From the IMG/VR virus record IMGVR_UViG_3300044609_000595, positions 46,320 through 110,319 of that record: DNA of 64,000 nucleotides. The stretch is one strand, 5' to 3'. Positions 9,554 through 14,153 of this stretch are shown here, one piece after another. This stretch comes from a virus. Below the pieces are notes generated by a model. The model ran no database searches. It had not been told where the DNA came from and saw nothing but the letters and a program-made list of their open reading frames with translations. How positions within the stretch are numbered: the first letter of the stretch is position 1; each line of letters starts with the position of its first letter. The translations under genes and the position numbers were made by a program.

Positions 9554-10267
9554 ATGGCATTACCTAAGCTTGGTGTACCTACATTTGAATTAGAATTACC
9601 CTCAACTAAAAAAGTTATTAAGTATAGACCTTTCATTGTTAAGGAAGAAAAGGTTTTATTGATTGCACTAGAATCGGAAGACGAAGATCAAATTTTTGCA
9701 GCGGTAAAAGATTTGATTAAAAATTGTGTGATTAGTAGAATCAAAGTAGATGATCTTCCTGCATTTGATTTGGAATATATTTTCTTGAGAATTCGTGCAG
9801 CAGCAGTAGGCGAAATTATTGATATGAATGTGACATGCACAGATGACAATGCCACTAGAGTTCAAACTCAAATTAATATTAATGATGTAGAAGTATACTT
9901 CCCAGAAGGTCATACCAATAAGGTCATGCTTACTGACAACTTGGGTATTGTTATGAAGTATCCTGGTATGCAACGTTTTATTGAAGCAGAATTTTTAGAA
10001 AAAGATATCAAGACAGAAGAAGTATTTAATTTCATTGCTGATTCTATTGAACAAATTTTTGATGCTGAAGAAGTTTATGATTCTTCTACCACATCCAAGA
10101 AAGAATTTCGAGAGTTTGTTGAAGGGTTAACAACAAAACAGTTTGAAGAAATTCAAAAATTTTATGAGACTATGCCCAAACTTCAACATAAATTTAAAGT
10201 AGTTAATCCAAATACTGGTGTCGAATCTGAGTACACTATTGAGGGTCTACAGAATTTTTTCGCATAG
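9554..10267 (+). CDS. 26: baseplate hub protein gp26 (tail assembly chaperone-like)
   Basis: 237 residues with the pattern of the T4 baseplate family PF12322 (FELELPSTKKVIKYRPFIVK EEK near the start; KQFEEIQKFYETMPKLQHKF near the end). In T4, gp26 is needed for hub assembly. Its place directly before the tape-measure-type gene is where other tailed phages have tail assembly chaperones. The final codons AAT TTT TTC GCA TAG contain the slippery heptamer T TTT TTC (10255-10261), and the -1 frame stays open into the next short reading frame. Confidence 0.82.
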   Translation: MALPKLGVPTFELELPSTKKVIKYRPFIVKEEKVLLIALESEDEDQIFAAVKDLIKNCVISRIKVDDLPAFDLEYIFLRIRAAAVGEIIDMNVTCTDDNATRVQTQININDVEVYFPEGHTNKVMLTDNLGIVMKYPGMQRFIEAEFLEKDIKTEEVFNFIADSIEQIFDAEEVYDSSTTSKKEFREFVEGLTTKQFEEIQKFYETMPKLQHKFKVVNPNTGVESEYTIEGLQNFFA

Positions 10268-10299
10268 CACTCTTCCAAAATAGTATGGAAGGGTACTAT
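10255..10299 (+). promoter_or_regulatory. putative -1 programmed frameshift site
   Basis: Slippery heptamer TTTTTTC (10255-10261) in the gp26 frame, one codon before the stop. Downstream, CTCTTCC (10270-10276) can pair with GGAAGGG (10287-10293), with one U-G pair, starting eight bases after the heptamer. ATAGTA (10280-10285) can also pair with TACTAT (10294-10299). The two helices interlock, but the connecting loop would be zero length, so they are more likely alternatives than a standard pseudoknot. Confidence 0.6.
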
Positions 10300-10446
10300 A
10301 AAACAAATTTTGCTTTGATGCAGTATCATAAATACTCTTTGACTGAGATTGAAAATTTGATGCCGTGGGAAAGAGAAGTATATACTTCTTTATTGATGCA
10401 GTATATTCAGGAAGAAAAAGCAAAACAAGAAGCAGCTAATCGATGA
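10285..10446 (+). CDS. 51: gp51-like frame, probably expressed as a gp26 frameshift extension
   Basis: If initiated at its own ATG it is 53 residues: MEGYYKTNFALMQYHKYSLT, then EIENLMPWEREVYTSLLMQY and an acidic/basic end. The 'x-MPWERE-x-Y' pattern is typical of the second part of tail assembly chaperones, placed before the tape measure. It is in the -1 frame relative to gp26 with no stop between them, so a frameshift would give a fusion of about 300 residues. No good ribosome-binding site precedes its ATG. It overlaps the next gene by four bases (ATGA). The name gp51 rests on position only. Confidence 0.65.
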   Translation: MEGYYKTNFALMQYHKYSLTEIENLMPWEREVYTSLLMQYIQEEKAKQEAANR

Positions 10447-13400
10447 TACCCGAAAAGGCGATAAAACCAATAAGAAAAAACGGCAGAGATAATACAGAAA
10501 TTGCTGTTGGAACTCTTATTGCTTATAGAGTTTTTCCACACACACAAGAAGGTATTCAAAAAGCAAAGGATACTATTGCTGCCAATGATAATTGGCTAGT
10601 TCCTTCATTGCTACCAGAATATTATGATGGTATTGATAGTGACTTGATGGTTGGCAAAGAGAATGATGCTATACGAGCGATCACTAGACAGTTAAAAGAA
10701 TTTTATGGTATATCTTCTGCTGGAACTGAAACTGCTGAAGATACTAAAACTCCAATAGAACCAGAACCAGTTGAGGAAATTAAAAAACCGCAGCAACGAA
10801 ATGTAAATCATCCTAAATTATATCCAGAACTACAAAAGTTTATTAAACCTCGCTATATGTGGGGTCAGAGAGGATTATATGATTTAAATTTTAAATCTGA
10901 TATTGATAAAGCAATTTATTATGCTGGGGCATCAAGTAAAAATAAACAGGGGGATATGATTTCCCCAAATGAAAAAAAATTAGCTATTAGAGAATGGATA
11001 TTTGCCGTTACTGGTTTAAATTATCGTGATGATTATGATGAATTAAAAGAATACAGAAAGAGAATTCTTGAGTATATTGTTACTGGTCTAAGAACAGATA
11101 CAATAGAAGATGATGGTGGGGAATTGATTATTCCACCAATCTATGATGGTCCATTTGATGAACCAAATCAAGAAGAAGACTATGATGAAGAGGAAGAAGA
11201 TGAAGAAGAACCAGAAGGTTTAGATGATCTACTTGATTTTGTTAAAGTAGAAGAAGAGCTACCTGAAGAAAAAGAAGTAGCAGAAAATATTGAAGAACAA
11301 ATTGTTGATGCTATAGAAGCGGATGATGATGAAGAAGGTGATATAGGATCGGAAGATGACATCCCAGATGAACTATTGCAGGATGAATTAGATCCAGAAT
11401 TTGTAGAGCAACTTGTTGTTACGGTAAACAAAAGAAAAAATAAACCAAGAAAACCAAGAACAGGAAGTTATGTAACTAACACTAAAATTTTTAAATTTTT
11501 AACCACAAATCTTTATAAAATTCAAGGTCAACTTGATAGTATTGATAAGTCATTACAGGAGCAAACACAATTAGTTCAAGCTAATTTACAAGTTACTTCT
11601 GGAATATATGAAAATTTAGATATACAAAATGAAATCATTGGTCAGAAACTAGATGCTATACTACAAGTTTTTAACAAGCAAACTGAAATATCTAAACAAT
11701 TTGCGGAGGATGAAGAGCGTCGATTAGCAGAACAAAGATTAGAAAATCAAGTTGATATTGCTGGAACAGAAACACCAGCAGATCTCAGAGGAAAGGGAGC
11801 AACTGGTAAAAAAAGACAGTCGAAAATTTCACAATACTATAGAAGAAAATTACTTAGACAAGCATATAGAAAATTACCAAAAAAACTTAGATCATTAAGA
11901 ACTGAAACAAGAAGACTACAAAAAATTCCTGGTAAAATTTCTGCAGGAATTAAATCTTCTGCTGCCAATAGAATTACTCGTATACTCCCTAAAAAAGTAT
12001 CAAACTTTACTAATAATTTGAGAGCATCTAGAGCAGCAGCTCAGGGGATGGGTGGTGTGTCGAAGTTAAAAGGTGTTGGTAGAAACATTCCTGGAATAAG
12101 ACAAGCACTTTCTGCGTTAGAATATTCTGAAAGGAAATCGGCTGGACAATCTGAGGTTCAGGCAATTGCAGGAGTGGGTGGATCACTCGCTGGGGCAGCC
12201 GCAGGAGCCGCTCTAGGCACGATGTTATTCCCTGGGGTGGGGACGGTAGCTGGTCTGTTGATCGGGGCTGCATTCAGCGCCGCAGGCAGTATGGCGGGGT
12301 CTAAAATTGCAGACATATCAACTGGAGCAGATAAAATAAATGGGGAGCATGAAGTTGGCGGACTAACCAAACCAGGAACAGCTATACTTCATGGCACAGA
12401 AGCAATCGTGGATCAAAATATTGCTAATATGCAACCAGTAGATCCAGTTGGTGGAACTATTCTTGCTGCAACAACTCAATACATTAATAAACTTGGACCA
12501 ATTGGTGCTCCTATTGCTCCTATGTTTGAGCAAGTAGCTGCTCCATTAGCAAAAGTATATGATGTACCAAGTACTTTGGTGCAAGCTAATGTGGGTGGTT
12601 CTTTACCATCACTTCAGTCTACTATAAAAAAAGTTAGAGATAAAAAAAAGAAAACTCCCGAAGAAAAGTTGGGAGCAATCGAAAAAGATCTTTTAGAAAC
12701 TAAAGATCCAGAGTCTTTTGCTGATAAACTTTTGAAGATGCTTGATCCAGAAGGAAAGTTCCAACAATTACTTAAAAATATAAATGCTACTACCACACCA
12801 ACAATAGATGGCGATTCTCTTATGGCTGAAGGTGGTTACGCAGTGGAAGCATCCGATGTAGGAGATAAATTTGGTGACAGAGGAGGAAAACATAGAGGTA
12901 TTGATATTGCAAGCAGTAGATTTACAATGGGTACACCTATCTCAATTATCAAACCAGGAACTGTAGTTGATGTTGGGAGACTTTCACAAGGATCTGGTGA
13001 TCCAGGTGGATGGGGAAATTTTGTAGTTGTTAAACATGATGATGGATTATATTCTTTGTATGGTCACTTAAGTGAAATTAATGCCGCAAAAGGACAAAGA
13101 TTGGAACCATCATCTGCTGGAGTCTTTCCAGTAATTGGTAAAATAGGAAGCACTGGAAGATCTACTGGAGCACATTTGCATTTGGAAGTTGGTACAGGAT
13201 GGTCTGGAGGAGTTTTAACTGGGCATATGAATCCTTTACCTATTGTTAATCAATTATTACGTGGTGGAGGAAATGTTAAAAAAATTGATAGACCAACGGG
13301 AACTCCAGTAAAAGTAGAAGGTCTTGGTCAACAAGGAATTATGGGAAATAAAAATCTTGGACAGGTTTCTGGTGTTGGTAATAAAGGATATTTGATTGTC

Positions 13401-14153
13401 CCTGGACATGGAGCAGGTGGTGGTGCTCCAGAAGAAAAACGTTTAGTGCAAATGTTAGCACAAAATGCGTACACAAATTTAAAAGCAAAGCATCCAAATG
13501 CAAATATTCAATATGTAAATCCAGATACTATGTTTGGTGATGATGATGCTGGCTGGAACAAGCAAAAAGAATGGTATAAACAAAAAGAAAAAGAAGGTTG
13601 GGAAATTTTAGAAGTGCATATGGATGCTTCAATGGAATCCAAACAAGGTAAAGGAAGAGGTGTAATTACTTCTAAAGCAGAATTAAACCCAGTTGAAAAA
13701 TATTTTGGTGAAAATTATGGAGCATTTGATAGAGGATTTAGAGATCTTGCTCTTCCTAATAGAGGAGGAAGTATTTTTGAATTGGGTAATATGTCTCCTG
13801 AATTACAACAATTAGTTAAATCTGGGAAAGTATCTAAAGAACAATTGAATGCTTTAACTGCGCCATTTGAAAGTTCTATTGCTGCTGGATTAAACTTACA
13901 ACAATCAATAGCTCCACCAACTCAAAGGCAGCCAGCTCAATCTAAGTATTACTTGAGACAAGGTGCAGATAAAAAAACAGATACTCAAATTATTATGATA
14001 CCCGCTAGTAGTAATGCAGGCAAGGCACTTGAAAAGAATGCAACTACAGAAGGTGTTAGGTTTAGTTATAATAAAAATTATAATACGTTCGACACTTCGG
14101 AAATACCTTCTTCCACAAGGGCACTTGTGCTGCGTCGTTTAGGTCTTAACTAA
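10443..14153 (+). CDS. tail tape-measure-type protein with M23 peptidase and amidase-like domains
   Basis: 1236 residues. Order: ~200 residues of unknown fold; very acidic stretch (~240-320); coiled-coil-like region (~355-440); basic region (~450-550); Gly/Ala zipper hydrophobic segment (~575-625); a GGLTKPGTAILHGTEAIVD motif like those of tape measure proteins (~640-655); then an M23/LytM domain (~800-930) with HRGID (His817, Asp821), LYGHL and His911-Leu-His913; then an amidase-like domain (~980-1130) with PGHG (His989), Glu997/998 and LEVHMDA (His1059). The first gene after the chaperone frames is usually the tape measure. The lytic domains should open peptidoglycan during DNA entry. The exact T4 equivalent is unclear. 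Confidence 0.75.
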   Translation: MIPEKAIKPIRKNGRDNTEIAVGTLIAYRVFPHTQEGIQKAKDTIAANDNWLVPSLLPEYYDGIDSDLMVGKENDAIRAITRQLKEFYGISSAGTETAEDTKTPIEPEPVEEIKKPQQRNVNHPKLYPELQKFIKPRYMWGQRGLYDLNFKSDIDKAIYYAGASSKNKQGDMISPNEKKLAIREWIFAVTGLNYRDDYDELKEYRKRILEYIVTGLRTDTIEDDGGELIIPPIYDGPFDEPNQEEDYDEEEEDEEEPEGLDDLLDFVKVEEELPEEKEVAENIEEQIVDAIEADDDEEGDIGSEDDIPDELLQDELDPEFVEQLVVTVNKRKNKPRKPRTGSYVTNTKIFKFLTTNLYKIQGQLDSIDKSLQEQTQLVQANLQVTSGIYENLDIQNEIIGQKLDAILQVFNKQTEISKQFAEDEERRLAEQRLENQVDIAGTETPADLRGKGATGKKRQSKISQYYRRKLLRQAYRKLPKKLRSLRTETRRLQKIPGKISAGIKSSAANRITRILPKKVSNFTNNLRASRAAAQGMGGVSKLKGVGRNIPGIRQALSALEYSERKSAGQSEVQAIAGVGGSLAGAAAGAALGTMLFPGVGTVAGLLIGAAFSAAGSMAGSKIADISTGADKINGEHEVGGLTKPGTAILHGTEAIVDQNIANMQPVDPVGGTILAATTQYINKLGPIGAPIAPMFEQVAAPLAKVYDVPSTLVQANVGGSLPSLQSTIKKVRDKKKKTPEEKLGAIEKDLLETKDPESFADKLLKMLDPEGKFQQLLKNINATTTPTIDGDSLMAEGGYAVEASDVGDKFGDRGGKHRGIDIASSRFTMGTPISIIKPGTVVDVGRLSQGSGDPGGWGNFVVVKHDDGLYSLYGHLSEINAAKGQRLEPSSAGVFPVIGKIGSTGRSTGAHLHLEVGTGWSGGVLTGHMNPLPIVNQLLRGGGNVKKIDRPTGTPVKVEGLGQQGIMGNKNLGQVSGVGNKGYLIVPGHGAGGGAPEEKRLVQMLAQNAYTNLKAKHPNANIQYVNPDTMFGDDDAGWNKQKEWYKQKEKEGWEILEVHMDASMESKQGKGRGVITSKAELNPVEKYFGENYGAFDRGFRDLALPNRGGSIFELGNMSPELQQLVKSGKVSKEQLNALTAPFESSIAAGLNLQQSIAPPTQRQPAQSKYYLRQGADKKTDTQIIMIPASSNAGKALEKNATTEGVRFSYNKNYNTFDTSEIPSSTRALVLRRLGLN

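Follow-up and report, generated by a model that had tools for sequence, protein, structure and literature searches.

Gene order and probable slip site at the end of gp26

In the window, by which we mean the whole 64,000-nucleotide stretch of DNA from a T4-like cyanophage that was analysed, gp26 lies on the plus strand at 9554..10267, and its unshifted product ("G", 237 aa) matches both PF12322 T4_baseplate (E 1.4e-69) and phrog_150 (E 2e-77). The 3' end of gp26 reads AAT at 10253-55, TTT at 56-58, TTC at 59-61, GCA at 62-64 and TAG, the 0-frame stop, at 65-67 (10265..10267), and these codon positions agree with an earlier note, made from the letters of the sequence, in placing a slippery heptamer T_TTT_TTC (10255..10261, plus strand; X_XXY_YYZ in the 0-frame register) one codon before the gp26 stop. 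After a -1 slip at this site, reading would continue as CGC (10261-63) ATA GCA CTC TTC CAA AAT AGT ATG and onwards, and the -1 frame, which the note had described as free of stops through the frame starting at 10285, is indeed open to 10446. This plus-strand segment (10261..10446) comprises 61 open codons and a stop (10444-10446) that overlaps the start codon, an ATG at 10443, of the gene that follows, and it runs through the ATG at 10285..10287 that is usually taken as the start of gp51 and is probably unused. The segment, matching phrog_634 from its first residue (E 5.7e-27) and found in 559 phage records, would form the C-terminal domain of a predicted 297-aa gp26-51 fusion ("GT"). The gp26 part would end in ...GLQNFFA when unshifted vs ...GLQNFFR after the -1 slip, and the predicted tryptic peptides of the window protein are VVNPNTGVESEYTIEGLQNFFA at the unshifted C terminus and, in the fusion, VVNPNTGVESEYTIEGLQNFFR followed by IALFQNSMEGYYK. 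Among the 19,637 codons of the window's ATG ORFs of >=100 aa, the gp26 heptamer is the only in-frame T_TTT_TTC/T, a rarity which, with the conservation described below, makes it more than a chance occurrence.

The next gene (10443..14153, plus strand) encodes 1236 aa with a Peptidase_M23 domain (PF01551, E 1e-17, residues 816-916) and a hydrophobic Gly/Ala-rich stretch, and it is likely the tape measure gene, whose product is the candidate client of a chaperone encoded upstream; its matches to several tape measure PHROGs are weak and come mostly through the peptidase domain. Around residues 230-300 the same protein is acidic and of low complexity.

Conservation of the heptamer and of the -1 frame

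The earlier note had raised the question of whether the heptamer and the open -1 frame are conserved in other cyanophages, and both proved to be present, with the heptamer in frame, in all of the 162 IMG/VR relatives that three scans recovered and whose gp26 end is intact. The first set held 80 loci, 78 of them with an intact gp26 end, and T_TTT_TTC or T_TTT_TTT was found in 78/78, with a -1 frame running open into the same domain in all; the later scans, seeded with distant relatives, added the heptamer and the open -1 frame in 84/84 more, the two sets overlapping in lineage. The slip site, with its open -1 frame, is also common to 15 named phages, namely the Kyanoviridae S-CAM1, P-SSM2, P-SSM5, S-N03, S-H38, BUCT-ZZ01, DSL-LC02, Melnitz and C48C1, the Vibrio phages V09, D479 and EniLVp02, Aeromonas phage AP1, Stenotrophomonas phage YB07 and Rhizobium phage RHph_Y68, with T_TTT_TTG in the Rhizobium-type member; of the named phages seen, Synechococcus phage S-CAM1 comes closest to the window (gp26 73% identical). 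The frameshift form thus occurs in cyanophages and also in T4's own family, the Straboviridae, in its Vibrio and Aeromonas phages. In some relatives the gp26 stop is shifted to 10, 13, 16 or 31 nt past the heptamer start and the heptamer is kept, and neither a missing slippery run nor an interrupted -1 frame was found among the relatives of the cyanophage/Schizotequatrovirus/Ceceduovirus group. In 57 loci, nonredundant at 5%, the slip codons are always NNT TTT TTN, even though TTT makes up 440 of the 621 gp26 Phe codons (71%) and T-ending codons are 38% of the total; these counts ignore shared ancestry, but synonymous sites around the slip site are near saturation.

The pattern of substitution changes at the same point. 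Over codons 1-8 past the heptamer, in close pairs, the -1 frame has pN 0.069 and pS 0.294, and the same bases give pN/pS values of 0.153/0.108 in the 0 frame and 0.143/0.013 in the +1 frame; 5' of the heptamer, stops interrupt the -1 frame and its codons evolve without constraint (pN/pS 1.67, all pairs). Coding constraint, as judged from these comparisons, moves to the -1 frame at the heptamer, and the segment that follows is under purifying selection. Together with the conserved heptamer and the open frame, this switch in selection supports the proposal of the earlier note that a -1 frameshift joins gp26 to the gp51-like frame.

It could be argued that gp51 is a separate small gene, translated from ATG 10285 or by re-initiation, with the T run being incidental; after all, this ATG sits in the right frame in the window, gp51 is annotated as a gene in records, and other lineages have an ATG at -1 codon 7 (a large clade) or at codon 4 (P-SSM2), or TAATG at codon 3 (KVP40-like phages). 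We consider this very improbable, given that the heptamer is invariant, that the conserved peptide FFRIALFHNSLE begins at the heptamer, ahead of any likely start codon, and that ATG, GTG and TTG are all absent from the first 16 codons of the -1 frame in 25 of 72 distinct loci, besides the fact that in T4 gp51 the domain is present only fused to a gp26-like part. In addition, a Shine-Dalgarno sequence was looked for in the window 5' of 10285 and none was found. Since ATG 10285 is almost specific to the window phage, with Leu in its place in close relatives, the cyanophage "gp51" would usually not be a separate gene but the end of a frameshifted one. In the lineages with an ATG at -1 codon 3, 4 or 7, re-initiation may contribute and could add a free C-terminal domain.

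In a large marine clade (L143, L151 and many of L140-L215), the ATG at -1 codon 7, which lies about 20 nt past the heptamer, is conserved, often with another at codon 4.

The earlier note had also stated that T4-type phages are usually annotated with separate gp26 and gp51 genes, and the records examined do show gp51 as separate, with inconsistent starts, or omit it. D479 and C48C1 have "baseplate hub assembly catalyst" genes that are 30-35 aa long, and S-CAM1 and ACG-2014d have no annotated gp51. These 30-35-aa "catalyst" genes (L091:3283-3387, L115:2100-2192) begin midway through the conserved -1 domain and are annotation artefacts of the unrecognised frameshift; reading the locus as frameshifted corrects this error in the annotation of cyanophage gp51.

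A related -1-frame segment without the canonical heptamer was found in 17 Ackermannviridae-type loci and two Vibrio phages. In the Ackermannviridae the segment follows gp26 (L089:3225-3405, L085:3285-3465, L093-L107), is similar to the cyanophage segment at E 2e-4, and has no start codon before codon 15. The junction sequence is ATTTTCATTTAATTTTTG, and the junction ATTTTCATTTAATTTTTGAAATTGATTTA is strictly conserved over at least its first 29 bases among loci that are only about 70% identical in gp26.

The two Vibrio phages, K364 and VPALA (L086:3200-3410, L088:3150-3375), have possible -1 segments after CTTTTTGCGTAATG and CTTTTCAGATAA, which are weaker slip sites, and the similarity of these segments to the cyanophage segment is not significant.

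RNA structure and the nature of the probable slip

Downstream of the heptamer, after a 7-nt spacer, a 9-bp hairpin is predicted on the plus strand between 10269..10277 and 10286..10294, both arms resting on pair counts and on a fold z of -3.0 vs synonymous shuffles, and a weaker outer helix pairs 10264..10267 with 10296..10299, its outermost pair being broken in a third of relatives. Of the stimulatory helices suggested in the earlier note, the stem stands, and the loop-loop helix clashes with the outer helix. A pseudoknot was tried and rejected: the loop-loop helix reuses the bases of the outer stem and leaves a loop of zero length, as the note had already objected against a standard H-type pseudoknot, and the hairpin explains the energies. 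Because of these shared 10264-67/10296-99 bases and the zero-length loop, a plain hairpin is likely the better model of the stimulator. Across the 57 loci, with shuffles preserving the -1-frame protein as the reference, the 66 nt past the heptamer fold more strongly than expected (mean z -1.97, SE 0.21); the following 66 nt show no excess folding (z -0.25, SE 0.16). In the hairpin, 87.9% of cells are paired and two pairs are changed on both sides, a modest covariation, and RNAalifold gave only 7 consensus pairs from 19 sequences because three members have the stem one column out of register. Other lineages have differing hairpins at the same place, and some are without any.

This RNA structure also bears on whether the slip might take place in transcription on the T run and not on the ribosome. 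Every member does have a run of 6-7 T, but programmed transcriptional slippage usually needs about nine or more A/T, so that the run is short by the usual standard; moreover, it never changes register against the 0 frame, TTC predominates over TTT as the second codon, and the RNA structure is enriched downstream at a ribosomal spacing. We therefore give transcriptional slippage next to no credence, even less than a separate gp51.

Frameshifting of the -1 type in tail chaperone genes is well known. From the conserved heptamer and open frame, the switch in coding constraint, the loci without a start codon and the RNA folding, gp26 and the "gp51" segment are almost certainly a frameshift pair of the lambda G/GT type. 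It is highly probable that the locus is one recoded G/GT gene in which a predicted minority of ribosomes slip with the help of the hairpin and make the fusion, and of which T4 would have the two-gene equivalent. The majority of ribosomes would terminate at TAG 10265-67 and release gp26 of 237 aa ("G"), and a minority would slip -1 at T_TTT_TTC, aided by the hairpin 7 nt downstream, and go on to the 297-aa gp26-51 fusion ("GT"). If lambda is taken as the model, numerous copies of gp26 would attach to the putative tape measure protein, the product of the next gene, and a few copies of the fusion would bring tail-tube subunits to it by means of their C-terminal helical domain, both proteins leaving once the tail is finished. 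What we infer from this body of comparisons is the synthesis of the fusion, how it stands in amount to gp26, and the mechanism of the chaperone.

Proposed chaperone function and the gp26/gp51 pair of T4

The window pair resembles lambda gpG/gpGT, and the P2 and HK97 counterparts, in having a short product and a rare -1 extension, a slip site towards the 3' end of the first ORF, a second ORF that in many members is without a start of its own, and a long candidate tape measure gene after the pair. It differs from them in that sequence similarity was not found, the heptamer is another one and the window gp26 is larger (237 aa), besides belonging to the T4 superfamily, T4 itself being described as lacking the frameshift (PMC5009743).

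A further reading accepts the frameshift and takes gp26 and the fusion as structural baseplate hub proteins instead of chaperones. The family names point that way (phrog_150 "baseplate hub", phrog_634 "baseplate hub assembly catalyst"), and so does some genetic work which located gp26 in the T4 hub (PMC3004832); nevertheless, we regard a structural role as unlikely, since the G/GT layout ahead of a long candidate tape measure gene is the chaperone pattern, and since T4 gp51 is needed for assembly and yet absent from the particle, gp26 and gp51 of T4 both being listed as hub assembly chaperones (PMC3004832). In the record of phage Konradin, too, both gp26 and gp51 are labelled tape measure assembly chaperones, and the chaperone idea is therefore not wholly new. 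In Foldseek, a model of gp26 matched 2ob9, the chaperone of HK97, weakly (probability 0.60, E 1.2), a link in fold that is no more than suggestive; the T4-type gp51 model gave no meaningful match in the PDB, and the gp26 profile no match to PDB sequences.

As to T4 itself, PF12322 and phrog_150 match both T4 gp26 and T4 gp51. T4 gp26 (208 aa) ends in ...GLKEFFELL, at the place that corresponds to the slip, and T4 gp51 (249 aa) matches phrog_150 over nearly its full length, PF12322 in residues 1-201 and phrog_634 in its C-terminal part. An HMM of the virtual fusion finds T4 gp51 at 40 bits, with an alignment that passes through the junction, vs 21 bits for each part alone, and nine other T4 proteins fell below the reporting limit with the same HMM; the annotated cyanophage gp51 by itself spans only the last part of T4 gp51. 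By these profile matches, T4 gp51 is a gp26 paralogue which has the -1 segment as its C terminus and is colinear with the whole virtual fusion. A joint alignment of gp51, gp26 and the segments misaligned the gp26 C terminus and was set aside. In predicted structures, gp26 and T4-type gp51 share the order of their secondary-structure elements, with extra C-terminal helices in gp51, and Foldseek with the T4-type gp51 model against predicted viral structures found both gp51 and gp26 proteins, a result in line with a shared fold.

Given that T4 gp51 is colinear with the fusion and that T4 gp26 ends at the slip position, T4 seems to have one gene for G (gp26) and another for GT (gp51). The T4 pair is thus like the window's predicted products in belonging to the same protein family, and unlike them in coming from two divergent genes with no frameshift; gp26 and gp51 are divergent in Krischvirus and Muldoonvirus as well, and in tandem in Pseudotevenvirus. 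Most simply, the common ancestor would have had a frameshift pair, and the T4 branch would have exchanged it for a duplicated pair, with the direction of this change being one that we infer. We lean, with some reserve, towards a frameshift ancestral to the T4 superfamily, a duplication into gp26 and gp51 in T4 and its near relatives, and a shift at a non-canonical site in the Ackermannviridae.

A two-gene replacement of G/GT has already been argued for Bacillus phage 0305phi8-36 (PMC2147016), where a gene duplication supplies G and GT and no frameshift is involved, a situation like the one that we propose for T4; that phage is of another lineage, whereas here the frameshifted and the two-gene forms stand in one recognisable protein family. 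In the open-licence literature we found no report of a gp26/gp51 frameshift in the T4 superfamily, and a major review describes tail-chaperone frameshifting as a widely conserved feature of long-tailed phages, "except T4" (PMC5009743). Our results bear on this exception, in that T4 gp26 and gp51 look like a two-gene replacement of the frameshift form, and, if this is true, the essential and long-unexplained gp51 of T4 would be T4's GT chaperone.
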